Shown here piece by piece: positions 1,058-24,107 of a DNA stretch of 34,823 bases (position 1 is its first letter; every line of letters starts with the position of its first letter). The DNA is taken from contig MTNR01000021.1 of assembly GCA_002011495.1 (NCBI GenBank), positions 1 to 34,823 on the forward strand, given 5' to 3'. Below the pieces are notes generated by a model that did not search any database, was not told the origin of the DNA, and saw only the letters and a list, made by a program, of their open reading frames with translations. The stretch comes from Dehalococcoides sp. JdFR-56 (lineage in GTDB: Bacteria > Chloroflexota > Dehalococcoidia > Dehalococcoidales > RBG-16-60-22). The position numbers and the translations under genes were made by a program.

Positions 1058-1765
1058 ATGACCGAGTTGCGTGCCGAAGTTGACCCCGCTCAGGGGCAGC
1101 CGGATACGATCACCATAATGCTGGCTGATGACCACCCTCTGCTCCGCCAGGCGCTGAGAAATGTCCTGGAGAAGCAGGCTGATTTCAAAATCATCGCCGA
1201 GGCCGGCGATGGTGAGGAGGCGGTGAAATTAGCCACGGAGCTGGTTCCGGATGTGGTGATTATGGATATAGGTATGCCCAAGCTCAATGGTCTTGAAGCC
1301 ACGCGGCAGATCAAGGAGAAGTGTCCCCGCATCGCCATACTGGTGCTTACCGTTCACGATGATAGCGAGCATATCTTGGGCATACTTGAAGCCGGCGCCG
1401 CTGGGTATCTCACCAAGAGCGTCTTCGGTGACGAGGTGGTCTGTGCCGTGCGTGGGGTGGCTGCTGGGGAGACGGTGCTATCTCCCTCAATCTCGCAGCG
1501 GATAATCAAACACGCGTTGCGCCATATCGCCAAGCCCTTGCCTCTGGACGTCGGTGAGAAGATTACCAGCCGGGAGCTAGATATCCTGAGGCTGGCGGCA
1601 AAGGGCCTGAGCAATAAGGATATCTCGCTCAAATTAGACCTCAGCCTACGCACCGTTAAGGGGCATCTCTCGGAGATTTTTTCCAAGTTGAACGCCGGCA
1701 GCCGCACCGAAGCGGTGATCACTGCGCTGCGCGCTGGTATCCTCACCATTGATGACCTCAACTGA
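1058..1765 (+). CDS. NarL/DegU (LuxR-type) response regulator
   Basis: REC domain MLADDHPLLRQALRN...PDVVIMDIGMPKLNG and LuxR-type HTH SRELDILRLAAKGLSNKDISLKLDLSLRTVKGHLSEIFSKL. Confidence 0.93.
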   Translation: MTELRAEVDPAQGQPDTITIMLADDHPLLRQALRNVLEKQADFKIIAEAGDGEEAVKLATELVPDVVIMDIGMPKLNGLEATRQIKEKCPRIAILVLTVHDDSEHILGILEAGAAGYLTKSVFGDEVVCAVRGVAAGETVLSPSISQRIIKHALRHIAKPLPLDVGEKITSRELDILRLAAKGLSNKDISLKLDLSLRTVKGHLSEIFSKLNAGSRTEAVITALRAGILTIDDLN

Positions 1766-2840
1766 GGTGGTGGATGGTAAAATGATGAGTCGCTCGGAGC
1801 TAGGCAGGCTTGCCCGCAACGTTCATTTCTGGATTATCCTCATCATCACCGCTGCCATCGCCATTATCTATTATGAGTGGAGCAATTGGTTTCCCTGGTT
1901 CTGGCGCTATTTTGTTTTTGAGTTTGCCAACGAGCTTATCGGTAGCCTTTTCTTCATCCCCTTCCTCTACGCTTCCCTCGTCTTCTGGTGGCGGGGCTCT
2001 CTCTTCGTTTGGGTGCTGTCTCAGGCGGCGGTATTTCCCCTTCTGCTCTATTACCGCTCCAGCATTGAGGATGTGCTGATCAATGTGGCACTGTCCTTCG
2101 TTCCGCTGACGGCGGTGATGATTATCACCATGGAGCTAAAGTGGCGCGAGCGCCAGAGACAAATTATGGTGGAGCGGGAGCGAGAGCGCCAAGTGTACAT
2201 GTCTGAGATCTTCAGGGCCCAGGAGAATGAGCGCCAGCGCATTGCTCAGGAGCTTCATGATGATACCACCCAGGAGCTGCTGGTGATAGCCAACCGTGCG
2301 CAAAATCTGGTGTCTGGTGACCATGGCCAATCTTCGCCCATGGTGCGGGAGCAGGCGGAATGGATACGGGATGCCGTGCTTAAGCTCTCAGAAAATGTGC
2401 GACGGCTCAGCCTGGACTTAAGGCCAAGCGTTCTGGATGACATCGGGCTTGTTCCTGCGGTCAGATGGCTGGCTGACCGCTTAAATCAGGAGGACGGCAT
2501 CAATACCAAGGTGGTGGTGAGTGGCCAGGAGAGGAAGCTGCGCCCGGAAGCTGAGGTCACCATTTTCCGCATCATCCAAGAGGCCTTAAATAACGTCAGG
2601 CGCCATTCCCAGGCCAGCGAGGCGGTGGTCACCCTGGACTTCGCCCCCCAGTCACTCAAGATAACGGTGCAGGACAATGGCAACGGCTTTTCGCTCAAGG
2701 AGACGCTCAGTAGCCTTGCCAGCAAGGGTAAGCTAGGGCTGATCGGAGTGCAGCAGCGAGCTAGACTACTCAACGGCACCTGTGTCATCTGCTCCCAGCC
2801 TGGTGAAGGCACCTCGGTCTCGGTTGAGATAGCCGGGTAG
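1749..2840 (+). CDS. Sensor histidine kinase, NarL/DegS type (HisKA_3 + HATPase_c) with multi-TM N-terminus
   Basis: ENERQRIAQELHDDTTQELLVIANRAQ (HisKA_3), LRPSVLDDIGLVPAVRWL, HATPase DNGNGF; overlaps the upstream RR gene. Start may be TTG 1749, ATG 1752 or ATG 1782. Confidence 0.92.
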   Translation: MMTSTEVVDGKMMSRSELGRLARNVHFWIILIITAAIAIIYYEWSNWFPWFWRYFVFEFANELIGSLFFIPFLYASLVFWWRGSLFVWVLSQAAVFPLLLYYRSSIEDVLINVALSFVPLTAVMIITMELKWRERQRQIMVERERERQVYMSEIFRAQENERQRIAQELHDDTTQELLVIANRAQNLVSGDHGQSSPMVREQAEWIRDAVLKLSENVRRLSLDLRPSVLDDIGLVPAVRWLADRLNQEDGINTKVVVSGQERKLRPEAEVTIFRIIQEALNNVRRHSQASEAVVTLDFAPQSLKITVQDNGNGFSLKETLSSLASKGKLGLIGVQQRARLLNGTCVICSQPGEGTSVSVEIAG

Positions 2841-8853: not shown

Positions 8854-9783
8854 GTGGATAAGAGAAGGAGGGAGGCAAGTTTGAGAGGTTTGGCCTTATC
8901 GCTGGCGGCGGGTTTCGCCTCGGCCGTGGTGATGCTGGCCTTCAGTGGCGGTCAAATCTATGCTTTGGATGAGAACAACTGTCTCTCCTGTCATGGCAAC
9001 CCGGAGCTGACCAAGACCAACGGGGAGGGGAAAGAGGTCTCCCTGTACGTGAGTGAGGAGGCGGTGAATACTGCTGCCCACCGTTTTATTGACTGCACCA
9101 CCTGCCATACTGCCCAGCCCCATCAGGTCAACACCCCGCTCACCAAGCTATCTCTGGCGCAGAAGTGTGGCACCTGTCATCAGTACCAGTATAAGCTGCA
9201 TCTCCAGAGTGTCCACGGTCAGCAGTTGGCCCAGGGTAACCCTGATGTGGCCACCTGTGTTGACTGCCACAGCCCGACGGGCAACCCCCACAGCGTCATC
9301 CGGGTGCTGGAATATAGCGCCCCGGCTTACAAGAAGAACATCGCCCAGACCTGCGCCAAGTGCCATGATAACGAGGAGTTGATGGCCAGCTACGGCATTG
9401 TGGAGAAGGTGTATGAATCCTACATGCGCAGCTTTCACGGCAAGGCGATACAGCTGGGCACCTACGAGATAACCCAGCTGGACAAGGCGACCTGTACCAA
9501 TTGTCACGGCTATCACGATATCAAGAGCACGCGCGACCCCACCTCTCCGGTCTCCGGAGTGCAAAATCTGGCCAAAACCTGTGAGCAGTGCCACCCCGGC
9601 GCTGGGGTGGAGTTTGCCCGCGGCTTCCTTGGCCATAAAGAGGCATCGCCAGAGAATATTCCGGCGGCCCATTACACGGAGGTGTTCTTCACCATCCTGC
9701 TGACGGTGGTGGTGGTGGCTGGCGCCTTCGTGGTCGTCACTGCCGTGGTTCGGTTTGCCATCAACCGATGGAGGGAGGAATAG
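8854..9783 (+). CDS. Membrane-anchored multihaem cytochrome c (7 CXXCH)
   Basis: GTG start; signal/TM; CLSCH, CTTCH, CGTCH, CVDCH, CAKCH, CTNCH, CEQCH; C-terminal TM helix VFFTILLTVVVVAGAFVVVTAVVRF. Confidence 0.92.
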   Translation: MDKRRREASLRGLALSLAAGFASAVVMLAFSGGQIYALDENNCLSCHGNPELTKTNGEGKEVSLYVSEEAVNTAAHRFIDCTTCHTAQPHQVNTPLTKLSLAQKCGTCHQYQYKLHLQSVHGQQLAQGNPDVATCVDCHSPTGNPHSVIRVLEYSAPAYKKNIAQTCAKCHDNEELMASYGIVEKVYESYMRSFHGKAIQLGTYEITQLDKATCTNCHGYHDIKSTRDPTSPVSGVQNLAKTCEQCHPGAGVEFARGFLGHKEASPENIPAAHYTEVFFTILLTVVVVAGAFVVVTAVVRFAINRWREE

Positions 9784-9784
9784 C

Positions 9785-10519
9785 ATGGCCACAGTAGCTA
9801 GGATTATCTCGGCAGAAGGCGCTCAGGAGGAGGTCATCACCCGTTTTGACATCCACCAGATAATCCAGCATGCTGGACTGATGGTGAGCTTCATCCTGCT
9901 GGCGGTTACCGGGCTGCCTTTGAAGTTCCCTGACTGGGCGGTCAGCCAGTGGTGGGCGGGTGTCTGGGGAGGTATTGAGACCCTGCGCGCCACGCACCAC
10001 TTTGCCGCCTGGATGATGGGCGCCGTCGCCCTTTACCACGCCCTCTATATCCTGTATTCCGTCCTCATCTTGAAAAAGCCTTTCCCGGTGAAGATGCTTC
10101 CCAGCTGGCGGGACTTCATCGTCTTCTTCCAGGAGCTGGGGTATTTTCTGGGATTGAGGAAGGAAAGGCCCCTGGTTGACCGCTTCCACTGGAGGGAGAA
10201 GTTTGACTACTGGGCGATTTTCTGGGGGATGCCGGTGATGGGAATCTCAGGCTTCATCATGATGTATCCGGTCTGGGCCACCAAGTTTCTCCCCGGGTGG
10301 GTGGTCCCGGCTGCCCTGGTAGCCCACAGCGATGAGGCGATGCTGGCCCTGATCTGGATTTTCATGGTGCATATTTTCTTCAACCATTTTGCCCCCGGGG
10401 TATTTCCCTTGAACACCTCCATTTTCACCGGCAAGGTGAGCCGGGAGCGATACCGCCGGGAGCACCCCCTTGAGTATGAGAGACTAACGGGAACCGATGA
10501 GAGAAAGGAGGCGGAATGA
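9785..10519 (+). CDS. Cytochrome b-type membrane subunit (formate dehydrogenase gamma/cytochrome b561-like)
   Basis: Several TM helices with conserved histidines (FDIHQIIQHAGLMVSFILLAVTGLPLKF, ATHHFAAWMM, AHSDEAMLALIWIFMVHIFFNHF). ATG 9785, in frame with ORF 9755. Confidence 0.82.
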   Translation: MATVARIISAEGAQEEVITRFDIHQIIQHAGLMVSFILLAVTGLPLKFPDWAVSQWWAGVWGGIETLRATHHFAAWMMGAVALYHALYILYSVLILKKPFPVKMLPSWRDFIVFFQELGYFLGLRKERPLVDRFHWREKFDYWAIFWGMPVMGISGFIMMYPVWATKFLPGWVVPAALVAHSDEAMLALIWIFMVHIFFNHFAPGVFPLNTSIFTGKVSRERYRREHPLEYERLTGTDERKEAE

Positions 10520-10728
10520 GGTACCTTCGCGAGATATTTGATGACTGGCTGACGAGGGCCGCTGGTATCAACTTCGTGCTCATTGTGGCCCTGGTTATGT
10601 TCAACGTTTTCTCCGACCTGCCGGAGAGATATCCCCTCTTCGGTGTGATCAACTTTTCCATGGTGCCCATTCTGTTTATCAGCGGAGGGATTATCTTCGT
10701 CCTGGCCATCCTCAAGAGCTATGAGTAG
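10516..10728 (+). CDS. Small two-TM membrane protein of the cytochrome cluster
   Basis: 70 aa, ATGA overlap with upstream gene; two hydrophobic segments (INFVLIVALVMFNVF; NFSMVPILFISGGIIFVLAIL). Confidence 0.7.
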   Translation: MRYLREIFDDWLTRAAGINFVLIVALVMFNVFSDLPERYPLFGVINFSMVPILFISGGIIFVLAILKSYE

Positions 10729-10746
10729 TTAAGGAGCAAAGCTGGA

Positions 10747-11868
10747 ATGCAGATGAACTACCGGAGACATCGCGAGAAATTGCTTTTTCTTATGTTCGCT
10801 GGGGCCATCGGCATCATACTGCTGGTCATCGGTGGCTATCAGCTGATTGAGTTTATGGATTCCACCTCTTTCTGCGGGCGGCTGTGCCATGAGGTGATGT
10901 ACCCGGAATACACCGCCTATCAGGCATCACCTCACTCCCGGGTGGCCTGCACGGAATGCCATGTTGGCTCGGGGGCTGACTATCTGGTCAAGTCCAAAAT
11001 CAGCGGCATACCGCTCATCTTCACCACCATCGCCGGCAACTATGACCGCCCCATTCCCACCCCGGTGGAGAATCTCCGCCCAGCCCGTGAGACCTGTGAG
11101 CAGTGCCATCGGCCGGAGAGGTTTGCCGGTGACCTGGTTCGCGTCCATACCACCTACGCCGCCGATGAGACCAATACCGAGAAGGTTGATACCCGCATCC
11201 TCCGGGTTGGTGGTGGGGAGTCTGAGGTCGCCCAGGATATTCACTGGCATATCGCGGCCAAGGTCTGGTATCTCCCCATTGATAAGAAGCGGCAGGAAAT
11301 AGCTTGGGTCGGCGTTGAGGATGAGGCTGGTGGCCTCATAGAATACGTTGACCCGGATAAGGTGGCGGAGGTCACCCCGCAGCGCCTCGCCGAGAAGAAA
11401 CGCCTGATGGACTGCGTGGACTGCCACAACCGGGCGACGCATATCTTCCGCTCGCCGGAGGAGCTCATTGACATGGCGCTTGCCCAGGGTAAGATAGACA
11501 AAACTCTCCCCTACATCAAGAAACTGGGGCTGGAAGCCCTGGACCCGCCCAATCCAAGCTTAGAGCAGGCCTTCACCAAGGTGGAGGCGCTTGAAGAATT
11601 CTACCGCACTTCCTATCCGCAGGTTTACCAGGAGAGGAGGGAGGCCATTGATAAGGCGATAGAGGAGCTCAAGGAGATCGCCCGGCTCACCACCTTCCCC
11701 AAGATGAAGGTAACCTGGAAAACCTACATTGATAACCTGGGGCACCAGGAATCTCCGGGGTGTTTTCGCTGCCATGGCAAGCTGGTGGCAGCCGCCGATG
11801 ACCAGGAGGGCGAGGTCATTGATGCCGATTGTCAGCTATGCCATTACTTCGAGCTCCAGCAAAAATAG
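10747..11868 (+). CDS. NapC/NirT-type membrane-anchored multihaem cytochrome (5 CXXCH + 1 CX3CH)
   Basis: N-terminal TM then FCGRLCHEVMYPEYTAYQASPHSRVACTECHVG; CEQCH, CVDCH, CFRCH, CQLCH. Confidence 0.88.
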   Translation: MQMNYRRHREKLLFLMFAGAIGIILLVIGGYQLIEFMDSTSFCGRLCHEVMYPEYTAYQASPHSRVACTECHVGSGADYLVKSKISGIPLIFTTIAGNYDRPIPTPVENLRPARETCEQCHRPERFAGDLVRVHTTYAADETNTEKVDTRILRVGGGESEVAQDIHWHIAAKVWYLPIDKKRQEIAWVGVEDEAGGLIEYVDPDKVAEVTPQRLAEKKRLMDCVDCHNRATHIFRSPEELIDMALAQGKIDKTLPYIKKLGLEALDPPNPSLEQAFTKVEALEEFYRTSYPQVYQERREAIDKAIEELKEIARLTTFPKMKVTWKTYIDNLGHQESPGCFRCHGKLVAAADDQEGEVIDADCQLCHYFELQQK

Positions 11869-11925
11869 GGCATTTTTCTCGGACAAAATGGGTATAAATA
11901 CCCGTAGCTGATAGGGTAAAGATAT
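11867..11925 (+). promoter_or_regulatory. Second AGGGCATT/TGATAGGKTAAAG promoter region, upstream of octaheme lipoprotein
   Basis: AGGGCATTTTT at 11867, TGGGTATAAAT at 11889, AGGGTAAAGAT at 11913; TGATAGGGTAAAGATAT 11909-11925 resembles 8096-8112. Confidence 0.45.
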
Positions 11926-11985
11926 GTTAGTCTACCCTTTAGGTTATGTAGGCACAGGCGATAAGAAAAAGAAAGGAGGGATGGT

Positions 11986-13233
11986 ATGAGAAGAAAGCTC
12001 ATCTGGGTGGCGTTGCCAATAATAATATTGGTAGCGCTGCTCGCTGCTTGCCAAGGTCCACCTGGTCCTCAGGGTCCGGCAGGTCCCGCAGGCCCGGCAG
12101 GCCCACAAGGTCCGGCAGGCCCGCAAGGCCCACCTGGTCCACAAGGTCCGGCAGGTCCCGCAGGCCCAGCAGGTCCGGCAGGCTCGGCGGCTGAGATTAG
12201 CGCCGAATATGTCACCTCTAAGGTCTGTGCTGCTTGCCATACTGAGGAAGCGGAGGAGGTTGGCAAATCCGGGCATGCTTACAAGCTGAACCCGGTGATA
12301 AATGGCCAACCGCCGAAGTATCCTTTCTCCGAGGTACCGAATCCACCCGAAGGCTATACCTGGGATGATATCACCTACGTTATCGGTGGCTATGGATGGA
12401 AGGCTCGCTTCATTGACAAGCAGGGCTACATTATCACCGGCGCTGACGAGAGTGCCACCACGCAGTATAACTTCGCCAATCCGGTGGTAGGCAAGGAGGC
12501 TGGCTGGGTGGGGTATCATGCTGGTGAAAAAGAGAAGCCGTATAACTGCGGACGCTGTCATACCACCGGCTACAAACCAGACGGGCATCAGGATGGTTTG
12601 CCCGGCATCGTTGGCACCTGGGCTGAGCCGGGGATTCAGTGCGAAGCCTGCCATGGTCCGGGTGGTAATCACGTGAACGACCCCTATGGCGTGGCCATGA
12701 AGATAGACCGCAGCTCGGCGATGTGTGGTGAATGTCACTCCCGGGGCGCGGTGGAGACCATTGACGCCAAGGGCGGGTTTATCAAGCATCATGAGCAGTA
12801 TGAGGAGCTTCTCCAGTCCAAGCATCTGGCTCTGAGCTGCGTTGACTGCCATGACCCGCACCAGGGTGTCATCCAGGCGCGCAAGACTGGCGAGGCCACC
12901 GTGCGCATCGAGTGTGAGAGCTGCCACTTCCAGGAGGCCAGATACCAGAAGTCGGCGGCGATGAAGGCATCGGTGGATTGCATTGACTGCCATATGCCTC
13001 GCATCGTCAAGAGTGCCTGGGGTGATGCCGAAGCTTATACTGGGGACATCCGGTCTCACCTCTTCGCTATTGACCCCGAGGCCACGGCGCAGTTCTCGGA
13101 GGATGGCAAGAAAGCCATCTCTCAGATCACGCTGGACTTCGCCTGCAAGTCCTGCCATCGCAGTGGCGGAACCGCCACGGTGAAGACGGATGCAGAGCTG
13201 AAGAGCGAGGCCATCGGCTATCACCAGAGATAG
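11986..13233 (+). CDS. Octaheme c-type cytochrome lipoprotein with collagen-like (GXY) stalk
   Basis: Lipobox LLAAC, then 15 Gly-X-Y triplets ([12 protein letters not shown]...), then CAACH, CGRCH, CEACH, CGECH, CVDCH, CESCH, CIDCH, CKSCH. Confidence 0.92.
12055..12189 (+). repeat. Collagen-like GXY-encoding tandem repeat (15 triplets)
   Basis: GGT/GGC-CCN-NNN 9-nt units encoding [12 protein letters not shown]. Confidence 0.93.
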
Positions 13234-13348
13234 ACGCGTATCAGCTAGATACGGTAAAATTAAATAGGGTGATGGCGGAAGGCAAAAAGGCAGTCTCATC
13301 CGCAGTGCTCTTTGGCAGGAGGAAATAGGGGAGCGGTAAGCTCCTTTA

Positions 13349-13385
13349 AGAGGGGAAGCTAGGAAAATCCCTTAGCTTCCCCTCT
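13349..13385. terminator. Strong 13-bp stem-loop between octaheme and diheme lipoprotein genes (terminator or attenuator)
   Basis: AGAGGGGAAGCTA (13349-13361)/TAGCTTCCCCTCT (13373-13385), 11-nt loop; followed by AT-rich CTTAAAATATTTTGTTTT without a perfect U-tract. Confidence 0.6.
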
Positions 13386-13423
13386 CCCTGTGCTTAAAAT
13401 ATTTTGTTTTAAGGAGGCCAGAG

Positions 13424-13804
13424 TTGAGGAGCAAAATTACACTGTTACTGGTAGCGGCGCTGCTGGTTATAGTGCCCTTGCTCGCAGCTTGTGGTGGTGA
13501 GGAGGCAGCTCCGGCGCCAGCGCCAAGTCCAGCCCCGGCACCAAGCCCAGCTCCGGCACCGGCGCCAAGCCCAACGCCGACGCCAACCCCGACCCCAACA
13601 CCGACGCCAACGCCGACACCAACACCAACTCCTACCCCGTCACCAGCGCCAGCAGCAGGGCCACCTGCCGTGCCGCATACTCTGGAAGGGCGTGACAATT
13701 GTCTTATGTGTCACGAGGCTGGGATTGGTGGTGCCGGCGTGATCCCCGAGGACCACGCTGGGCGCACCAACGAACAGTGCACTACCTGCCATACGCCAGC
13801 CTAA
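13424..13804 (+). CDS. Small diheme cytochrome lipoprotein with Pro/Thr/Ala-rich stalk
   Basis: TTG start; LLAAC lipobox; (PA/PS/PT)n linker; NCLMCHEAG and QCTTCHTPA. Confidence 0.85.
13503..13672 (+). repeat. Low-complexity tract encoding (PA)n/(PT)n stalk
   Basis: Repeated CCNRCN hexamers (ccaacgccgacg...) encoding PAPAPS...PTPTPTPT. Confidence 0.9.
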
Positions 13805-13871: not shown

Positions 13872-14267
13872 ATGTTGAGGAAGAAAAAATTCCTAGTGGG
13901 TGGTCTTGTTGTTTTCCTCGCCCTGGGCTATCTGATCTATACCGGTTTTCAGAGTTCGGCCACCTATTATTATGAGGTGAGCGAACTTCTGACGCGGGGA
14001 GATTCAGTCTATGGCGAGAATGTGCGGGTGCGTGGGGAGGTTGCTCCCGGCTCGGTGGAGCGGGAGTCTCAGGGGACGGTTCTCCGGTTCATCATTACCG
14101 ATATGGAGGGGGAGCAGAGCTTGCCGGTGGTCTATCAAGGGGTTGTCCCTGACACCTTCAAGGTGGGTGTTGAGGTGGTGGTTGAGGGTCAACTTGACTC
14201 AGATGGGGTCTTTCAGGCCCACACCCTCATGCCGAAGTGTCCCTCCAGATATGTGCCCCAAGAGTAG
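13872..14267 (+). CDS. ccmE: Cytochrome c maturation haem chaperone CcmE, CxxxY variant
   Basis: N-terminal TM, OB-fold GENVRVRGEVAPGSVERESQGTVLRFIITD...VVVEGQLDSDGVFQAHTLMPKCPSRYVPQE; Cys at 14238-14240 in place of the usual haem-binding His. Confidence 0.93.
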   Translation: MLRKKKFLVGGLVVFLALGYLIYTGFQSSATYYYEVSELLTRGDSVYGENVRVRGEVAPGSVERESQGTVLRFIITDMEGEQSLPVVYQGVVPDTFKVGVEVVVEGQLDSDGVFQAHTLMPKCPSRYVPQE

Positions 14268-14291
14268 GACACAATTTAGGAAAGCAATTCT

Positions 14292-16268
14292 ATGGCAGAT
14301 ATAGGCTATATTGCACAGTTTCTGGCGCTGGTGGTCTCGGTTTATGCGGCGGGTGCCTTTATCCTTGGCTGGAGGGGAAAACATCCCGCCCTGCTCAGCA
14401 GTGCTAGGAATGGTTTACTGGCGTCATGCGGGCTGCTTACCATATCAGTGGCCTCGCTGGTCTATGCTCTAGTTAGCCATGACTTCCAGATAGAGTACGT
14501 TTACCAGTACACCAGCCGGGATCTGGCTTTAACCTACCGCCTGAGCGCTTTATGGGCGGGCAATGATGGTTCATTGCTCTTCTGGGCATGGCTTCTTTCC
14601 GTTCTGGGCGCGGCGGTGATACTCCAGAAACGAGAGGTGGGCAAGGAGCTGGTGCCCTATGCCGCCGCAATTATCGGGGTAACCCAGACTTTCTTCATTC
14701 TTCTGCTGCTTACCATAGCCAATCCTTTCCAGAAGCTTCCCCAGGTCCCGGCCGATGGCATGGGGCTTAACCCGATGCTGGAAAATCCCGGCATGTTTTT
14801 CCATCCCCCCCTTCTCCTCGCCGGCTATGTTGGCTTTACCGTTCCTTTCGCCTTTGCCATGGCGGCCCTGCTCTCCAGGAGGCTCGGCGACGCCTGGCTG
14901 ATAGTGGTCAGGCGATGGACGCTGCTGGCTTGGCTCTCCCTTGGCCTGGGCAACCTTTTGGGCGCCTGGTGGGCATACGTTGAGCTTGGCTGGGGAGGCT
15001 ACTGGGCCTGGGACCCAGTGGAGAACGCTGGCCTGATGCCTTGGCTGGTGGCCACCGCCTTTCTTCACTCTATCATGATGCAGAGGCGGCGGGGGATACT
15101 CAAGGTTTGGAATATGGTGCTGATAATACTGACCTTCGTCCTGGCAATACTTGGCACTTTCCTCACCCGGAGCGGTGTTCTTGCTTCGGTTCATACCTTT
15201 GCCGAGTCCCCTTTATTGGGTGCCTCGTTCCTGGCCTTTATCGGTATTACCATCGTCAGTTCGCTGGGCTTGCTCTATTACCGCAGTGAAGAGCTGAAAA
15301 GCGAAGCGGAGATGGAGTCACTTGTCTCCAGGGAGAGCACCTTCCTGCTCAATAATTTGCTCCTGGTCGGTGCTGCCTTCACCATCTTTCTGGGAACGTT
15401 CTTCCCGGTGATATCAGAGGCGGTGCGTGGGGTCAAGGTTAGCGTCGGCCCGCCCTTCTATAACCAGGTGAATGTGCCTATTTTCCTGGCCATCATTCTC
15501 CTCGCCGGGATTTGCACTCTCATTGGCTGGCGGCGAGCCTCCCTCAGGAATCTGGTACAACATTTCCTCTGGCCGCTGGCGACGGCGCTGATTTTGGGGA
15601 TAGTTCTCTTCATCCTGGGGATAAGGCAATGGCTTGCCCTTGTCGCCCTCCCCCTGTGTGGCTTCGTGCTCTTTACCATCCTCTACGAATGGTGGCGAGG
15701 GACGCGGGCTCGCCACCGGATGAGGAGCGAGAACTATCTGAAGGCGTTCTGGGGCTTGATCATGACCAATCGGCCCCGCTATGGCGGCTACATTGTTCAC
15801 ATCGGCGTCATCATCATGGCCGTGGGAATCATCGGCTCATCCCTCTACGGAGTGGAGAAGGAGGCCACCCTTACCCAGGGTGAGTCAATGAGCATTGAGG
15901 ACTACACCCTCACCTATGAGAATATGGACTTTTACGAGACCGAGAGCAAGGCGGTGGTTACCGCCACCCTTCTGGTCTCCAATCAAGGGAAATTGCTCGG
16001 CAGGTTGCTGCCGGAGAAATACTTTCACCGCAGCTTTGAGCAGCCGGTGACCGAGGTGGCCATTCGCAGCACCCTCGTTGAGGACCTGTATGTCATCCTG
16101 GTTGGCTGGGATGAAGATGGCACCACCGCCTTTAAGGTGCTGGTCAACCCGCTGGTTAACTGGATCTGGATTGGGGGAGTCGTCCTGGTTTTGGGAGGGC
16201 TTATTGCTTTCTGGCCTGAGTGGCGCAGGCAGCCAGTTCCACAGTCGGCTGGTAAAAGGGGGGAGTGA
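14292..16268 (+). CDS. ccmF: Cytochrome c haem lyase subunit CcmF
   Basis: WWD domain WGGYWAWDPVENAGLMPWL, LTRSGVLASVHTFAESP, many TM helices, downstream of ccmE. Confidence 0.96.
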   Translation: MADIGYIAQFLALVVSVYAAGAFILGWRGKHPALLSSARNGLLASCGLLTISVASLVYALVSHDFQIEYVYQYTSRDLALTYRLSALWAGNDGSLLFWAWLLSVLGAAVILQKREVGKELVPYAAAIIGVTQTFFILLLLTIANPFQKLPQVPADGMGLNPMLENPGMFFHPPLLLAGYVGFTVPFAFAMAALLSRRLGDAWLIVVRRWTLLAWLSLGLGNLLGAWWAYVELGWGGYWAWDPVENAGLMPWLVATAFLHSIMMQRRRGILKVWNMVLIILTFVLAILGTFLTRSGVLASVHTFAESPLLGASFLAFIGITIVSSLGLLYYRSEELKSEAEMESLVSRESTFLLNNLLLVGAAFTIFLGTFFPVISEAVRGVKVSVGPPFYNQVNVPIFLAIILLAGICTLIGWRRASLRNLVQHFLWPLATALILGIVLFILGIRQWLALVALPLCGFVLFTILYEWWRGTRARHRMRSENYLKAFWGLIMTNRPRYGGYIVHIGVIIMAVGIIGSSLYGVEKEATLTQGESMSIEDYTLTYENMDFYETESKAVVTATLLVSNQGKLLGRLLPEKYFHRSFEQPVTEVAIRSTLVEDLYVILVGWDEDGTTAFKVLVNPLVNWIWIGGVVLVLGGLIAFWPEWRRQPVPQSAGKRGE

Positions 16269-16759
16269 ATATGGGATTTAGGGAGAAGCTCGTCGTCATC
16301 CTGCTCATCGCCCTGCTTGCTCTCATACCCTCTCGAGCTAGCGCGCAGACGGTGATGGGCATCTCTAAAAAGCTTATCTGCCAGTGCGGCTGCACCTTGG
16401 TTCTGGCCAACTGTACGCATAGTGAGTGCGGCTCCCGGGAGGCGATGACCGCCCTGATAAGGGATAAAATCAGCCAGGGATGGTCAGAGGAGGAGATTAT
16501 CCAGTTCTTTGTGGCCCAATATGGGGAGCAGGTGCTGGCATCTCCCCCCAAGCGGGGCTTTAACCTGATGGCCTGGATAACCCCGTTTGCCGTGATACTG
16601 GCCGGAGCTGGGGTGATCTACCTGGCCATAAAGAAATGGACAAAACGGGGCAGGCAAGCTCAGATTGTGGGCGCGCCTGAGAGTGAGGAAGAGGAGGAGA
16701 AATACCGGCAGCAGCTGGAAGAGGAGCTGAAAAAGTTCGCCGAGAGGAGTTTCCGGTGA
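16265..16759 (+). CDS. ccmH: CcmH/CycL/NrfF-family cytochrome c biogenesis protein, with CQCGC active-site variant
   Basis: Signal peptide, GISKKLICQCGCTLVLANCTHSECGSREAMTALIRDKISQGWSEEEIIQFFVAQYGEQVLASPP, TM; overlaps ccmF stop. Confidence 0.9.
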   Translation: MNMGFREKLVVILLIALLALIPSRASAQTVMGISKKLICQCGCTLVLANCTHSECGSREAMTALIRDKISQGWSEEEIIQFFVAQYGEQVLASPPKRGFNLMAWITPFAVILAGAGVIYLAIKKWTKRGRQAQIVGAPESEEEEEKYRQQLEEELKKFAERSFR

Positions 16760-17184
16760 CCATTTTCATCGCTATCTTGCTCACCATGCTCACCTTTGCC
16801 TTCATCGTTTACCCGCTGCTCAAGTCCCGACAGCGCCCCCAGGGTACTGCGCAGGATGAGCGGCTGCAGGAGCTGCAGTTCCGGCGGGATGCCACCTATT
16901 CCATGCTCAAGGAGCTGGAGTTTGACTATCAATCCGGTATCTTGAGCGATGAGGACTATCGGGAGCTTGAGGCGAAGTACAAGCAAAAGGGCATCTCCAT
17001 TCTCAAAAGCATTGATGCTCTGGAGAAGAGTCAGGATATTGAGGCGGAGATTGAAAGGCAGGTTATGGAGCTGCGCCGGGGGAGGAAACGGTTCTGCCCC
17101 CAGTGTGGGGCAAGGTATGAGGAGGGTGACCGTTTCTGCTCCCACTGCGGGACGAGACTAAAACGGGGGGAATCAGGTGATTAA
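16756..17184 (+). CDS. Membrane protein with CcmI-like N-terminus and C-terminal double zinc ribbon
   Basis: GTG start overlapping ccmH; TM MTIFIAILLTMLTFAFIVYPLL; helix RRDATYSMLKELEFDYQSGILSDEDYRELEAKY; FCPQCGARYEEGDRFCSHCGTRL. Confidence 0.8.
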   Translation: MTIFIAILLTMLTFAFIVYPLLKSRQRPQGTAQDERLQELQFRRDATYSMLKELEFDYQSGILSDEDYRELEAKYKQKGISILKSIDALEKSQDIEAEIERQVMELRRGRKRFCPQCGARYEEGDRFCSHCGTRLKRGESGD

Positions 17185-18343
17185 GCGTTTGGTCTGGCTG
17201 GTGCTGGTGCTTATCATCTTGAGCCCATCTCCAGCCGCGCTGGCGGCAGAGCCCGGAGGGGGCGTTATTGAGGGGCAGGTGGTCAATGGCACCGCCGGTG
17301 GCAGCAGCGTGGCCAACCTGGAGGTTACCTTGCAGGTCTACCAAGGTGGGACCCAGGTGGACACTGCCACCGCCCTCACCGATGCCTCGGGCCGCTTTAG
17401 CTTTGAGGGGCTGGCTACCGAGCCCGACTACAGCTATCAGGTGGTGCTCACCTTCCAGCAGGCGGAGTACTCCACCGGGGCGCTCAGCTTTGGTGATGGC
17501 GAGACCACCAAATACGCTGAGGTCACTGTCTATGACGCCACCACCAGCGACGAGGCGGTCAAGGTGGAGATGGCCCACACCGTTATCTATGTTGAGCCAG
17601 ATGGCCTGCGGGTGGAGGAGTATGCTCTGGTGGCCAATGACTCTGACCGGACTTACATCGGCGCCAGAGAAATCACCGATGGGGTCAGGGAGACGCTGCG
17701 CTTTTCCCTCCCCGATAAAGCAGTTGAGCTGCAGGTAAGGCGTGGCCTGATGGAGTGCTGCGTCTACGGCAGCGAGGATGGCTTCGTTGACACCATGCCA
17801 CTTCTACCTGGAAAGAGGGAGCTGGTCTATTCCTACCGCATCAGCGATAGTTCCAAGGAATATACCTTCTCCCGCCGGGTGTACTACCCGACGGGTAACT
17901 ATGACCTTCTGGTTCAGGGGGAGAACGTGGAGGTGGCCAGCGACCAGCTGGCCGTGGCGGAGCCACTGTTTATCAGTGATATCTGGTTTAAGCATCTTAG
18001 CGGCAATGACCTGGCTGCGGGTGATGTTTTGGTGGCGCGGTTTTCCAATCTGCGCCCGGCCAGTACCCAATCGGCCATTCTCTGGGTGGTTCTGGCGCTG
18101 GTGGTGTTGACCGGTGGTTTCGGCCTTGCCTATTATGTATCGCGGCGCAGACATCTCCAGCCAGCGGTGATTGAAGATGACTTGAGCCAGCAGAAGCAGA
18201 GATTGCTTCTGGAGCTCAGCCAGCTGGATGATGACTTTGAGGATGGCAAAATTGACGCTAAGAGCTACCGCCGGCTGCGGGCGGAGAAAAAATCACAGTT
18301 ACTCTTCCTAGTGCAGAAGGAGAAGAGCGGCTCTGGCTCATGA
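17177..18343 (+). CDS. Secreted/membrane protein with carboxypeptidase-regulatory-like beta domain, C-terminal TM and SHOCT-like helix, in ccm operon
   Basis: GTG start; signal; EGQVVNGTAGGSSVANLEVTLQVYQGGTQVDTATALTDASGRFSFEGLATEPDYSYQVVLTFQQAEY; TM ILWVVLALVVLTGGFGLAYYV; LLLELSQLDDDFEDGKIDAKSYRRLRAEK. Confidence 0.78.
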   Translation: MIKRLVWLVLVLIILSPSPAALAAEPGGGVIEGQVVNGTAGGSSVANLEVTLQVYQGGTQVDTATALTDASGRFSFEGLATEPDYSYQVVLTFQQAEYSTGALSFGDGETTKYAEVTVYDATTSDEAVKVEMAHTVIYVEPDGLRVEEYALVANDSDRTYIGAREITDGVRETLRFSLPDKAVELQVRRGLMECCVYGSEDGFVDTMPLLPGKRELVYSYRISDSSKEYTFSRRVYYPTGNYDLLVQGENVEVASDQLAVAEPLFISDIWFKHLSGNDLAAGDVLVARFSNLRPASTQSAILWVVLALVVLTGGFGLAYYVSRRRHLQPAVIEDDLSQQKQRLLLELSQLDDDFEDGKIDAKSYRRLRAEKKSQLLFLVQKEKSGSGS

Positions 18344-19077
18344 AGACGCGTGGTTCTGCGTCCCGGGCTCGGGCGATTGAAGCCCACGAGCTCACCAAGT
18401 CCTTCGGCAACCACCTGGCCCTGAGGGGGGTGGACCTTGACGTGGGGTGGGGTGAGACTGTGGTCATCTTCGGCGCCAATGGAGCCGGGAAAACCACCCT
18501 GATCAAGGTGCTGGCCACCATCATAGGTATCTCCTCTGGCCGGGTCCTCATTGATGGCCTGAATATCAAGGACGACGCTGAAGAGGTCCGGCGCCGCATC
18601 GGCGTGGTCACCCATCAGACCTTCCTCTATGGCAACCTCACCGCCTATGAAAACCTTGATTTCTACGGCCGGATGTATGACGTCCCCAGGCGTGCCGAGA
18701 GGATCAAGGAAGTGGTTGATATGGTGGGGATGACCTCCCGCCTCTATGACCGGGTGAGCACCCTCTCCCGAGGTATGCAGCAGCGGATATCCATCGCCCG
18801 TGCCCTGTTGCACCGGCCGGCCATCATGCTGCTGGATGAACCGGAAACGGGGCTGGACCAGCAGGCAACCACCCGCCTCTGGGAAGTGCTGCAGGCCGGG
18901 GAGGATGGGAAACCTACCATCATCCTCACCACGCATAATCTGGAGCGTGGGCTGGAGCTGTGCGACCGTCTGCTGATACTGGCGCAGGGGAAGATCGCCT
19001 ACCAGGGAGCAAGGCAGGACCTGGACCTTGCCGATTTGAAGCGGACCTACCAGCATTACACCGGGGTGGGGACATGA
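18340..19077 (+). CDS. ccmA: Haem exporter ABC ATPase CcmA
   Basis: Walker A FGANGAGKTTLIKVLATI, signature STLSRGMQQRISIARALLHRP, Walker B IMLLDEP; located between ccm genes. Confidence 0.92.
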   Translation: MKTRGSASRARAIEAHELTKSFGNHLALRGVDLDVGWGETVVIFGANGAGKTTLIKVLATIIGISSGRVLIDGLNIKDDAEEVRRRIGVVTHQTFLYGNLTAYENLDFYGRMYDVPRRAERIKEVVDMVGMTSRLYDRVSTLSRGMQQRISIARALLHRPAIMLLDEPETGLDQQATTRLWEVLQAGEDGKPTIILTTHNLERGLELCDRLLILAQGKIAYQGARQDLDLADLKRTYQHYTGVGT

Positions 19078-19745
19078 GATTCTGGGGCAAAGTCATCACC
19101 ATCACCTGGAAGGACACTCTCTCCGAGATACGCACCAAGGAGATAATCTCCTCCGTGCTCGTGTTCACCCTCCTCGTCATCGTCATCTTCAATTTCGCCT
19201 TCGCCGCTAATCGCGAGATAATGAAACTGGTTGCCCCGGGCATCCTGTGGGCGACCTTCGCCTTTGCCGGGGTCTTGAGCCTTAACCGCTCCTTCGTCCC
19301 GGAGAAGGAGCAGGGCTGCCTTGAGGGGCTGATGCTCTGCCCGGTGGGTCGGGAGGTTATCTATGTGGGCAAGATGCTGGGCAGTTTGCTCTTTATGCTG
19401 GTTATAGAGATGATAGCGCTGCCCATCTTCACCTTTCTCTTCAATCTGCCGGTTCTCTCCCTCCAGATGGTCACCATCGCCCTTCTGGCCACCATAGGCT
19501 TTGTCTCCGTGGGCACCCTTTTTGCTGCGCTGGCGGTCAATACCAAGGCGCGGGAGCTGGTGCTGCCGGTGCTTTTCCTCCCTGTGGTGGTGCCGGTGAT
19601 CATCGGCGCGGTGGAGGCCTCCAGGCTTGCCCTGGCGGGCGAGCCCTGGAGCAGATTGACCTCCTGGCTTGGGATAATCGCTGCTTTTGACGTCATTTTC
19701 TTGGTGGTGTCATATCTTGTCTTCCCCTTCGTCATCGAGGAGTAG
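19074..19745 (+). CDS. ccmB: Haem exporter permease CcmB
   Basis: ATG 19074 overlaps ccmA stop; MRFWGKVITITWKDTLSEIRTKEIISSVLVFTLLVIVIF...RSFVPEKEQGCLEGLMLCPVGREVIYVGKML. Confidence 0.93.
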   Translation: MRFWGKVITITWKDTLSEIRTKEIISSVLVFTLLVIVIFNFAFAANREIMKLVAPGILWATFAFAGVLSLNRSFVPEKEQGCLEGLMLCPVGREVIYVGKMLGSLLFMLVIEMIALPIFTFLFNLPVLSLQMVTIALLATIGFVSVGTLFAALAVNTKARELVLPVLFLPVVVPVIIGAVEASRLALAGEPWSRLTSWLGIIAAFDVIFLVVSYLVFPFVIEE

Positions 19746-19766
19746 AAGCGCAAAGGAGAACAAATT

Positions 19767-20420
19767 ATGAAGAGAAGTATTTTGTTCTGGCTGAGTCTGG
19801 CGCTCTTGGTGGTGGCGCTGTACCTCATCTTCGGCTATGCGCCTATTGAACAAACCATGGGCATAGTGCAGAAGATCTTCTACCTTATGGTGCCCATGGG
19901 CTGGCTGGCCCTGCTCTCCTTTCTCACCGTCTTCGTCGGCAGCATCCTTTACCTGAAGACGAAGGCCCCCAAGTGGGATATCCTGGCTTACTCCGCAGCC
20001 GAGGTGGGGCTCGTCTTCACCACCCTGGCGCTGGTAAGCGGCTCCATCTGGGCGAAGCCAGTCTGGGGGGTGTGGTGGACCTGGGAGCCTCGTTTGACCG
20101 CCACGCTGGTTTTGTGGCTGATCTACCTTGCCTACTTCATGGTGCGCTCTTTCACCGCTGAGGAATCCCGTGGCGCCACCTTTGCCGCTATCGTGGGCAT
20201 TGTCGGCTTCATTGATATCCCCATCATTGCCTTGGCCACCACTCTGTGGCGGGGGATGCACCCCGGAGCGGTGATCTTCAAAGGCGGGCTGGCTCCGCCC
20301 ATGCTGCTCACCTTGCTGGTGAGCCTGGCTGCCTTCACTGTGCTGTATTCTTTCATCTTGAGGCAGAGGATCAGCTTGAGAAATGATGAGATTGAAATTA
20401 AGAAGATGAAAGGACTCTGA
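19767..20420 (+). CDS. ccmC: Haem exporter/WWD protein CcmC
   Basis: MGIVQKIFYLMVPMGWLALLSF, WGVWWTWEPRLTATLVLWLIYLAYF. Confidence 0.95.
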   Translation: MKRSILFWLSLALLVVALYLIFGYAPIEQTMGIVQKIFYLMVPMGWLALLSFLTVFVGSILYLKTKAPKWDILAYSAAEVGLVFTTLALVSGSIWAKPVWGVWWTWEPRLTATLVLWLIYLAYFMVRSFTAEESRGATFAAIVGIVGFIDIPIIALATTLWRGMHPGAVIFKGGLAPPMLLTLLVSLAAFTVLYSFILRQRISLRNDEIEIKKMKGL

Positions 20421-20447
20421 GATAGCACCCGCTGAGGAGAAGGTAAA

Positions 20448-20579
20448 ATGGAAAATGTAGGCTATCTGGTCGCCGCGTATATCATCGTTTATGCCGTGAT
20501 TTTCGGCTACGTGGCTCTCTTGTTCCGGCGCAGGAGAAAGCGGCAGCGGGAAATTGAGTTGCTGAGGGAGAAGAAATAA
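20448..20579 (+). CDS. ccmD: CcmD-like small single-TM protein (43 aa, absent from ORF track)
   Basis: ATG 20448..TAA 20579: MENVGYLVAAYIIVYAVIFGYVALLFRRRRKRQREIELLREKK; position after ccmC and TM-then-Arg/Lys-rich topology are typical of CcmD. Confidence 0.82.
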   Translation: MENVGYLVAAYIIVYAVIFGYVALLFRRRRKRQREIELLREKK

Positions 20580-20663: not shown

Positions 20664-22958
20664 ATGAAATTGCTGAGCGACCTCACACTGAGGAAGAGGA
20701 TCATCATCCTCACCGTGCTGGCACTGCTCTTGGGTGCTGGACTGTTCAGTTTTCTAGGGATGCGGGCAGTGGACCAGGCAACCGAAACCATGCTGCAGGA
20801 TAGACTAACCACCGCCCGTCTCATGGCGGACTACATCGATGATGCCCTGGGGCGTGCTCTCGCCGAGCTGGTACGCTGCGCGCAGGCGGTGCAGGACGGC
20901 CAAGCCAGCAGCTTCGGAGCGCAGATAGCCGCCCTTGAGGACGCCTTCTTTTTCCTCTCCTTCTATATTCATGATATTTATCTGCTCGATGGCCGGGGGC
21001 GGATTACCTGGAGCAAATCAGGAGAGGCGGCTATCCTGGGGACGGATATCTCCTTCTATCCCACCATCAGCCAGGCATTAAGCAGTGGTGAGCCTGGCAT
21101 ATCCGGGCTGGTCTCGGCACCGGTGAGCGATACCCCAGTTATCTTCCTCGCCAGCCCCACCGGAGAGGGGGGAGAGCCGGGCAGGGGGGTGCTGGTGGTG
21201 GCCATAGATATCTCCCGGTCAAGCATCGGCGGTTTCATCCGGCCGATAAGATTGGGTGAGACGGGCTACGTTGAGATCGTGGACCAGAACGGGATTGTGC
21301 TCGCCCGCACCGAGCCCGGGCCGAAGCTAGGTGCCTTTACCAAGAGCGACCACAGCGGGCGCTTTGCCGCCCTGATTGCCACAGGGAAGCCAACGCGGGG
21401 GCTGTGTCACTCCTGCCATATACCGGGGCAGAGGGTGGAGAGAAGGGATGTATTGGCCTTCGTGCCGCTCTCCCAGGCCCAGTGGGGGGTTGTCATCCGG
21501 CAGTCGGAAGAGGAGGCGCTGGCGCCCATCCGCGAGCTGCGCCAGAGCCTGCTGCTCTTCGGGGCGGGGTCAATGGTCATCATCTTTCTCTTCGTGCTGG
21601 TAACCACACGGGATGTGGCCAGCCGCATCTGGGGGTTGACCGCGGCCTCCCGAAGGATAGCCGAGGGGGATTTGAGTAGCCCCATCGCCATCTCAGGGAA
21701 GGATGAAGTCGGCGTTTTGGCCCAGACCTTTGACGAGATGCGGCTCAAGCTGCAGACGTCTTACGGAGCGCTGGAGCAGAAGACCAAGGAGCTGGCCTCG
21801 CTGCTTTCGGTGTCTGAGATTCTGACCTCGCTGCCTGACCTCTCCAACCTGGATACCGCGCTCGGCAGCGCCCTAGACAAGACCTTGGAGATAATGCGGC
21901 GAGACGTTGGTGGCATACTCCTCTGGGATGAGGAGAGGGAGGTGCTGCGTTACCGCGTGTATCGGGGGCTCTCTGAGGAGTACGTGCGGCGGGTATCCTG
22001 CCGCCTGGGCGAGGGCATTGCCGGCAGGGTGGCGCAAAGTGGCGAGCCGATTATCCTGGCTGACATCTCCACCGACCCTCGGGCAGCTCACCCTGATCTC
22101 ATCAGTGTCGAAGGACTGCGGGCATTTGCCAGCGTCCCCATTCGCTTCAAGGACAAAGTGCTGGGCGTGCTCAATATCGCCAGCCGTGAGACGCGCCAAT
22201 TTTCGGCTGAGGATGTGAGGCTTCTCGAGGGCATTGCCGTGCAGATTGCCACGGCGATTGAAAACGCCAGATTGCACCAGGAGGTGCAGAACAAGGAGAA
22301 GGTTCGCGGGGAGCTATTGAGCGAGATATTCTCCATCCAGGAGGGGGAGCGCAAGCGGATCGCCCGCGAGCTGCACGACGAGACAAGTCAGGTTCTGGCC
22401 AGCCTCACCGCCAGCCTTCAGGCTGCCTCAAATACCCTGCCCACCAACGTGGATAAGGCCAAAGCTTTGCTGGAGAAAGCCCAGAGGCTGTCCATCAGCA
22501 TCCTTGATGAGATACACCGGCTGATCTACGAGCTCCGCCCCACGCTGCTTGATGACCTGGGGCTGGTGGCGGCAACACGGTGGCTGGTGGATAATATTCT
22601 GGGGGATGCTGGGGTTGCGGTTGATTTCAAGACCTCGGGGCGGGAGAGGAGGCTGCCGCCCCAGCTGGAGACCACCCTGTTTCGGGTTATCCAGGAGGCG
22701 GTTTACAACATCAGCCGTCACGCGCAGGCCAAGAACGCCCAGATAACGCTGCACTTCAAGAGGGGGAAGGTTCGGGTTGGCATTAAGGATGACGGCGTTG
22801 GTTTTGATGTCAAGGAGGCGATAAGCTCCAAGGAAAGGCCACGAGGGCTGGGGCTGCTGGGGATGAAGGAGAGGATAGAGCTGATCCGGGGTAGTTTGAG
22901 CATCTCCTCGCGCCCCGGCAGTGGCACCGAAATCAATATTGAGATACCGACGGGTTAG
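20664..22958 (+). CDS. Sensor histidine kinase: TM - Cache-like sensor with CXXCH - TM - HAMP - GAF - HisKA_3 - HATPase_c
   Basis: TM1 IIILTVLALLLGAGLFSFLGM; extracytoplasmic domain with GLCHSCHIPGQRVERRDVLAFVPL; TM2 SLLLFGAGSMVIIFLFVLV; HAMP; GAF RLGEGIAGRVAQSGEPIILADI; ERKRIARELHDETSQVLASL. Confidence 0.93.
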   Translation: MKLLSDLTLRKRIIILTVLALLLGAGLFSFLGMRAVDQATETMLQDRLTTARLMADYIDDALGRALAELVRCAQAVQDGQASSFGAQIAALEDAFFFLSFYIHDIYLLDGRGRITWSKSGEAAILGTDISFYPTISQALSSGEPGISGLVSAPVSDTPVIFLASPTGEGGEPGRGVLVVAIDISRSSIGGFIRPIRLGETGYVEIVDQNGIVLARTEPGPKLGAFTKSDHSGRFAALIATGKPTRGLCHSCHIPGQRVERRDVLAFVPLSQAQWGVVIRQSEEEALAPIRELRQSLLLFGAGSMVIIFLFVLVTTRDVASRIWGLTAASRRIAEGDLSSPIAISGKDEVGVLAQTFDEMRLKLQTSYGALEQKTKELASLLSVSEILTSLPDLSNLDTALGSALDKTLEIMRRDVGGILLWDEEREVLRYRVYRGLSEEYVRRVSCRLGEGIAGRVAQSGEPIILADISTDPRAAHPDLISVEGLRAFASVPIRFKDKVLGVLNIASRETRQFSAEDVRLLEGIAVQIATAIENARLHQEVQNKEKVRGELLSEIFSIQEGERKRIARELHDETSQVLASLTASLQAASNTLPTNVDKAKALLEKAQRLSISILDEIHRLIYELRPTLLDDLGLVAATRWLVDNILGDAGVAVDFKTSGRERRLPPQLETTLFRVIQEAVYNISRHAQAKNAQITLHFKRGKVRVGIKDDGVGFDVKEAISSKERPRGLGLLGMKERIELIRGSLSISSRPGSGTEINIEIPTG
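21405..21419 (+). other. CXXCH (CHSCH) candidate haem c attachment motif within sensor domain
   Basis: TGT CAC TCC TGC CAT in frame with the 20664 ORF, between TM1 and TM2. Confidence 0.75.
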
Positions 22959-22967
22959 GAGGTCGCT

Positions 22968-23615
22968 GTGGACAAGATAAAGGTGCTGGTGGTGGATGAC
23001 CACGCCATGATGCGGGATGGCATTAGGGCGCTGCTCGCTTTGCAGGAGGATATTGAGATTGTGGGGGAGGCTGAGGAGGGGAGGGAGGCGGTCAAGAAGA
23101 CAGAGGAGCTCATGCCCAATGTGATCATCATGGATATAGCCATGCCAGGCTTGGATGGGCTGGAGGCTACCCGCCGCATCACCAGGAAAAACCCGATGGT
23201 GAAGGTGCTGGTCTTAACCCAGCATGATAAGCGAGAGTACGTGCTGTCCAGCATCAAGGCGGGGGCGAGGGGTTACGTGCCCAAGAGGGCGGTGGGCTCA
23301 GACCTGCTTTCCGCCATACGGGCGGTGCACCGTGGGGATTCCTACCTCTCGCCGTATGCCGCCAAGGCCTTGGTTGACCACTACCGCCGGCAGGGTGAGG
23401 CTGAACCCTATGACCGGCTGACGGCCAGGGAGAGGGAGATATTGAAGCTGATTGCCGAGGGGCACACCAGCCGGGAGATCGCCTCCAGCCTCTTTATCAG
23501 CTTGAAGACAGTTCTGGGGCACCGGGCCAAAATCATGGAGAAGCTGGGGGTACATAACTCCGCCGAACTCATCAAGTACGCCGTGCGCAAGGGCCTGGTG
23601 GAGGCGGATAGCTAG
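22968..23615 (+). CDS. NarL/LuxR-type response regulator, partner of upstream kinase
   Basis: GTG start; VLVVDDHAMMRDGIRALL...NVIIMDIAMPGLDGLEATRRI; LTAREREILKLIAEGHTSREIASSLFISLKTVLGHRAKIMEKL. Confidence 0.94.
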   Translation: MDKIKVLVVDDHAMMRDGIRALLALQEDIEIVGEAEEGREAVKKTEELMPNVIIMDIAMPGLDGLEATRRITRKNPMVKVLVLTQHDKREYVLSSIKAGARGYVPKRAVGSDLLSAIRAVHRGDSYLSPYAAKALVDHYRRQGEAEPYDRLTAREREILKLIAEGHTSREIASSLFISLKTVLGHRAKIMEKLGVHNSAELIKYAVRKGLVEADS

Positions 23616-23663: not shown

Positions 23664-24107
23664 TTATATGTAGTACATCACCTTGGCGGATTGCTCTTTC
23701 TTCCGCTGGCGGTCAACCAGGTCCTGCAAGGTGGTTGACTTGAGGATGCCATTGGCGGCCCGGTCCAGCTCACTCCAGATATCGCGGGCGGCACACCATT
23801 CCGACCGTTCACAGACCTCAGGGTTGTTGATGCATTCTACCAGGGCGGCATTCCCCTCCAGAAGCTCAATTATCTCCGCCAGCGTTATCTCCGCAGGAGG
23901 TTTGGCCAGGAGCACTCCACCGCCCACCCCCCGCACGCTCCGCATCAGCCCCCCAGTTATCAGGGGGCCGATGAGCCGTTTGAGATACGCCAGCGGAATC
24001 TCCTGTCTCTGGGCGATGTCCTTAAGGGATACCGGTGTCTTGCCCTGGTAGAGGGCTAGGTCCAGGAGCACCCTGGTTCCGTATCGGCCTTTGGTGGAGA
24101 GCTTCAT
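23664..24107 (-). CDS. Rrf2-family transcriptional regulator with three cysteines (Fe-S candidate)
   Basis: MKLSTKGRYGTRVLLDLALYQGKTPVSLKDIAQRQEIPLAYLKRLIGPLITGGLMRSVRGVGGGVLLAKP; CINNPEVCERSEWC. Confidence 0.93.
   Translation of the reverse strand: MKLSTKGRYGTRVLLDLALYQGKTPVSLKDIAQRQEIPLAYLKRLIGPLITGGLMRSVRGVGGGVLLAKPPAEITLAEIIELLEGNAALVECINNPEVCERSEWCAARDIWSELDRAANGILKSTTLQDLVDRQRKKEQSAKVMYYI

Follow-up and report, generated by a model that had tools for sequence, protein, structure and literature searches.

The first Cache domain known to carry a covalent cofactor is reported to be that of the sCache_heme family (PF11845; PMC12889525, a preprint of February 2026). In this family the CXXCH motif sits in an enlarged loop ahead of the final strand (PMC12889525, Fig. 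1C), and its members include GSU0582 and GSU0935 from Geobacter and an NO-binding protein from P. azotoformans (PMC12889525, PMC8396549). NO binding has been shown for a signalling-type member, and the family is rare or absent in Chloroflexota (PMC12889525). For GSU0582 and GSU0935, which bind NO as well as CO, a redox-linked ligand change has been proposed as the means of signalling (PMC8396549). An extracytoplasmic haem c is also present in DcrA from Desulfovibrio vulgaris, a chemoreceptor that is proposed to act as a redox or oxygen sensor (cited in PMC8396549 and PMC3460858).

The kinase described here is encoded in the window, that is, the whole stretch of 34,823 nucleotides of Dehalococcoides sp. 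JdFR-56 that was analysed. With a probability of about 0.75, judged from sequence and predicted structure, it is a sensor kinase with haem c attached to a double-Cache domain. Like DcrA, it would hold haem c outside the membrane in a signalling protein, although DcrA is a chemoreceptor and the two are compared by description only. In fold and in its TM-sensor-TM layout, the kinase resembles the dCache_1 (PF02743) ligand sensors PctA, PctB, DctB and KinD, retrieved with Foldseek. These known sensors, however, bind small ligands without a cofactor, whereas the window kinase carries a CXXCH motif. The output side is reminiscent of NarX/NarQ-NarL, which likewise consists of a HisKA_3 kinase and a NarL-type regulator. 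Here the models of NarQ and NarX match the kinase part only, and the sensor is a dCache domain with CXXCH instead of the four-helix nitrate sensor of NarX.

Gene neighbourhood of the kinase

The kinase gene belongs to a run of genes on the plus strand:

8854..13804, plus strand: multihaem cytochrome cluster (a 7-haem protein, proteins of the cytochrome b561 and NapC/NirT types, an 8-haem lipoprotein-like cytochrome and a 2-haem protein)
13872..16759, plus strand: ccmE, ccmF and ccmH (cytochrome c maturation, System I), upstream of ccmA-ccmD
17177..18343, plus strand: membrane protein with a weak CcmI-like C-terminal stretch, between ccmH and ccmA, kept in the syntenic block
18340..20579, plus strand: ccmA (from 18340), ccmB, ccmC and a 43-aa ccmD-like gene (20448-20579), directly upstream of the kinase
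20664..22958, plus strand: histidine kinase of 764 aa (TM1, dCache with CHSCH, TM2, HAMP, GAF, HisKA_3, HATPase_c)
22968..23615, plus strand: NarL-type response regulator (Response_reg and GerE, Pfam), likely partner of the kinase

The first-pass annotation had placed the kinase directly behind ccmABCD and ahead of a NarL-type regulator, and both assignments are upheld by the genes listed. The HisKA_3 kinase and the adjacent NarL/FixJ-type regulator form a two-component pair of the NarX/NarL kind. The upstream multihaem cytochromes had been given as about 13 kb; they actually span about 5 kb, with CXXCH counts of 7, 5, 8 and 2 in addition to the b561-type gene, and the approximately 7 kb between them and the kinase are the ccm cluster.

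Several other genes of the window deserve mention. The lipoprotein-like cytochrome with eight CXXCH motifs (11986-13233) has collagen-like Gly-Pro-Ala/Pro repeats after its signal sequence. The membrane protein at 17177-18343 also holds an Ig/carboxypeptidase-regulatory-like part and occupies the same place in other genomes. Between ccmH and this CcmI-like gene lies a small zinc-ribbon protein (16756-17184), with a homologue in the ccm cluster of locus L166. The start of the window (1058-2840) encodes another NarL-type regulator and HisKA_3 kinase, the latter lacking CXXCH. Directly after the response regulator gene, on the minus strand, is a gene for an Rrf2-family regulator (23664-24107); regulators of this family often contain an iron-sulphur cluster.

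The order cytochrome-ccmE-ccmF-CcmI-like-ccmA-B-C-kinase-regulator recurs in loci L059, L061 and L062. It is also found in L060, where no match to ccmF was found, and partly on the shorter contig of L081, so that the ccm-kinase-regulator order is seen in the window and in five other genomes. Across the family, a NarL-type regulator gene follows the kinase directly in 57/79 loci under a strict rule. The adjacency of kinase and regulator to the ccm genes agrees with a sensor of haem supply or Ccm capacity, in which the apo form would signal shortage and the haem form sufficiency, and the regulator would set ccm expression. The rest of the family speaks against it, ccm genes being found near the kinase in only 7/79 loci, within the sampled flanks. 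The window's own genome encodes two kinase paralogues (L054:10172-12493 on contig C42 and L056:1302-3182 on C44), both with CHxCH and with no ccm gene nearby in the sampled flanks. Local control of ccm cannot explain most of a family in which so few loci adjoin these genes. A readout of haem-maturation capacity, one of those suggested in the first-pass annotation, is therefore considered unlikely when the entire family is taken into account.

Domain architecture and predicted structure

The sensor features that bear on haem attachment are the following:

20766..21548, plus strand: double-Cache sensor region outside the cytoplasm (residues 35-295), the part used for alignment and modelling (dCache_1, Pfam; AF2)
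21351..21353, plus strand: His230 (in SDH), kept in haem-type members and in non-haem relatives alike; a candidate for the distal ligand or for lining a pocket
21405..21419, plus strand: CHSCH, residues 248-252 (Cys248-His252), in frame, candidate haem-c attachment site in the membrane-proximal Cache module, at the end of strand 3 and in the strand 3-4 hairpin
21498..21500, plus strand: Arg279 in strand 5, present in 99% of CXXCH members vs 8% of non-haem dCache relatives (Chloroflexota-centred set)

Pfam places dCache_1 at residues 36-232, HAMP at 315-364, GAF at 395-533, HisKA_3 at 562-628 and HATPase_c at 669-763. The dCache_1 profile is matched by all 18 orthologues, and the match of 54-57 bits exceeds the curated cut-off of 45. 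Hydropathy peaks mark TM1 at about 13-31 and TM2 at about 295-313, and HAMP directly follows TM2, which puts CHSCH in the extracytoplasmic segment. The in-frame motif and its location between TM1 and TM2/HAMP, as first annotated, are thus confirmed, and no sign of a cytoplasmic topology was seen in hydropathy or HAMP position. As for a c-type haem protein, the predicted exported CXXCH domain is accompanied by ccmA-F and ccmH in the window. Ten diverse members of the family are all histidine kinases (10/10), mostly of the HisKA_3 type.

In an AF2 model based on 18 sequences the motif region is poorly predicted; the model used here draws on 79 sequences (mean pLDDT 92.6, pTM 0.89). This model contains two Cache modules and, together with the Pfam match, answers the proposed check of the fold in favour of dCache. 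The strands of the proximal module are predicted at 201-207, 211-215, 244-249, 261-268 and 274-281 (kinase numbering, equal to model numbering plus 34). The motif begins in strand 3 and enters the strand 3-4 hairpin, leaving two strands after it. The top ranks of a Foldseek search against the PDB are double-Cache ligand domains, and none of the 50 PDB matches listed is described as a haem protein. Sequence searches of the PDB return no haem sensor for the proximal module and, for the full sensor, weak matches to double-Cache chemoreceptors and kinases only.

Conservation and distribution of the motif

Conservation of CXXCH in orthologues had been set beforehand as one test of the haem reading. 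The first set of 61 genomes consisted of 60 relatives and the genome of the window itself; in it, 18/18 alignable sensors carry the motif, the 17 others being 39-73% identical to that of the window. A scan of 85,462 species genomes then used two patterns, built on the motif and on the strand-5 segment (WGxxxRQxE type), respectively. Among loci found through the strand-5 pattern alone, which is blind to the motif, 17/18 have CXXCH and one has CHDCG. CXXCH is kept in 83/87 proximal modules scoring at least 60 bits and in 0/22 that score less, the nearest non-haem dCache relatives. Its retention in 83/87 relatives makes the motif more than a chance occurrence, and the test brings no refutation. 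The four exceptions are L117 (CHDCG), L173 (CX3CH), and L151 and L175, both without Cys; some relatives have lost the site.

Going by record titles, the members, nearly all from metagenome-assembled genomes, belong mostly to Dehalococcoidia and other Chloroflexota; the remainder come from Nitrospirota and from single genomes of Vicinamibacterales and of a deltaproteobacterium. Profile searches give matches in 26/148 genomes of the phylum of the Nitrospiria genome G438 and in 5/198 genomes of the phylum of G437. Most genomes of these two phyla with a match to the proximal module have CHxCH, while two have CHRCK and several are degenerate. The CHRCK sequences in place of CXXCH belong to L254 and L255, both with a Cys in the loop around residue 230 (230 loop). 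A second kinase copy (L063:6045-8315; genome G007, contig C15), located close to the copy linked to ccm, carries an in-frame TAG immediately behind its CHTCH, which may reflect a pseudogene, an assembly error or recoding. A tree of 104 sensors needs 7 motif changes, of which starred branches require at least 5, and a single gain within the dCache family is accordingly not demonstrated.

Maturation genes and cytochromes in other genomes

CcmF (PF16327) is present in 160/394 genomes of the window's class. Sorted by reading two tables, these comprise 25/26 genomes that match the haem-type module strongly vs 135/368 others (Fisher p = 8e-10), and among genomes with weak module matches alone the count is 9/15. 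The one strong-match genome in which CcmF was not found is 88% complete. Shared ecology or ancestry may lie behind part of this link. Genes with at least three CXXCH occur within 5 kb of 24/83 haem-type kinases vs 1/20 non-haem dCache kinases (p = 0.04), but the enrichment over other kinases is not significant (24/83 vs 3/20, within the same 5 kb).

Taken together, the retained motif, its extracytoplasmic position, the presence of CcmF in the same genomes and the recurring gene order lend good support to the reading as a haem-c sensor kinase put forward in the first-pass annotation.

Residues around the motif

The family signature, from the aligned sequences, is CHxCH. The first X of the motif (His249) is His in 97% of CXXCH members vs 8% of non-haem relatives, and Tyr202 is found in 89% vs 8%, again in the Chloroflexota-centred set. 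The frequency of Arg279 is somewhat inflated because this Arg formed part of one search pattern, and Nitrospirota members with Gln at this position indicate that Arg is not obligatory. Since His230 is kept in non-haem relatives, it is not a haem-specific ligand and a haem-specific role is weakened. Where CXXCH or CXXCK members lack a His in the 230 loop, 9/10 have Cys there, in about two lineages, which hints at, without proving, a Cys or His of this loop as axial ligand. For co-variation of Arg279 and His230 with CXXCH on independent branches, there are too few pairs for significance.

The same residues could be read as a Cys-His-x-Cys-His site, perhaps completed by His230, which binds zinc, nickel or copper, or as a redox-active disulphide, the kinase then sensing metal or thiol redox state. 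In line with this, the first X is His in 81/83 kinases vs 0/372 motifs of the multihaem genes in the sampled loci, His230 is conserved even where CXXCH is missing, and L117 retains the two cysteines while lacking the final His. That His is otherwise retained along with both cysteines, CcmF accompanies the strong matches in all but one genome, and the window kinase sits inside a ccm block, all of which count against a metal site. An exported CXXCH in a Ccm-bearing cell is expected to receive haem. The variants point the same way, CXXCK and CX3CH being haem-c types, the former known from the active-site haem of NrfA. A metal or thiol site is thus rated as quite improbable, and covalent haem is retained as the preferred reading of the motif.

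Relation to the sCache_heme family

Like sCache_heme, the window kinase has an extracytoplasmic sensor of the Cache superfamily with a near-universal CXXCH, fused to HAMP and signalling modules. Unlike the single-module sCache_heme, it is a dCache protein with the motif before the penultimate strand, His at the first X, and no match to PF11845. The earlier comparison with Geobacter haem c PAS-type sensors is consequently useful as an analogy, but the relationship does not extend to a double Cache lacking PF11845 and with its motif in a different hairpin.

An origin within the known family would require a diverged sCache_heme/Tll0287 member in which, by fusion, a second Cache module came to precede the haem module. 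The two families do share the motif, the superfamily and the kind of kinase output, and a profile comparison to sCache_heme gives a weak 57% probability with the motif included. This value drops to 0.9% once CXXCH is masked, as against 99.9% for the comparison to non-haem dCache relatives, which align across the motif with small gaps only. PF11845 matches 0/18 dCache-haem members at E values up to 1 and nothing in the window's own genome; it is found in 1/148 genomes of the window's class and 11/301 of the phylum. Moreover, two strands follow the motif here and only the last strand does so in sCache_heme (Fig. 1C of the same preprint), a layout also seen in 27 sequences of the sCache_heme family. 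Descent from sCache_heme by such a fusion is therefore improbable.

With the similarity gone upon masking and the close alignment to non-haem dCache relatives, the site looks like a separate acquisition in an existing hairpin of the dCache domain. The sequences look like a second haem-c Cache family, spanning Chloroflexota and Nitrospirota, which probably evolved separately from sCache_heme. As to the wider history, the balance tips modestly towards covalent haem sensing having arisen twice in the Cache superfamily: a dCache lineage in these two phyla would have acquired CHxCH within the existing strand 3-4 hairpin, hardly any residues being inserted, and the single-Cache family would have obtained its site separately, as an inserted cytochrome fragment.

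Proposed signalling mechanism

A mechanism is proposed by analogy with GSU0582 and GSU0935. The Ccm system would link haem to Cys248 and Cys251, and His252 would bind the iron on the proximal side. This would place the haem on the hairpin between strands 3 and 4 of the membrane-proximal module, its putative pocket being near His230 and perhaps Arg279. The sixth ligand could be His230 or, in some relatives, a nearby Cys. When the iron is oxidised, or when NO or CO takes the place of the distal ligand, strand 5 would move together with the helix leading into TM2. This shift might be relayed through HAMP and GAF to the HisKA_3 kinase, followed by phosphotransfer to the NarL-type regulator which, once phosphorylated, would adjust the linked cytochrome and ccm genes.

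Among redox state, NO, CO and haem supply, sensing of redox state or of a ligand is the best inference for the signal, with a slight preference for redox-linked ligand switching over the sensing of a gas alone. The particular signal, be it redox state, a gas or haem-maturation capacity, and the set of controlled genes are, as in the first-pass annotation, inferred.

If this reading is correct, such a double-Cache family, having a haem site of its own, would close the gap in Chloroflexota left by the survey of sCache_heme (PMC12889525), as far as the open-access literature goes. It would also offer a test case for the convergent origin of covalent haem sensors, and a handle on redox or gas sensing outside the membrane in uncultured, cytochrome-rich Dehalococcoidia and Nitrospirota.
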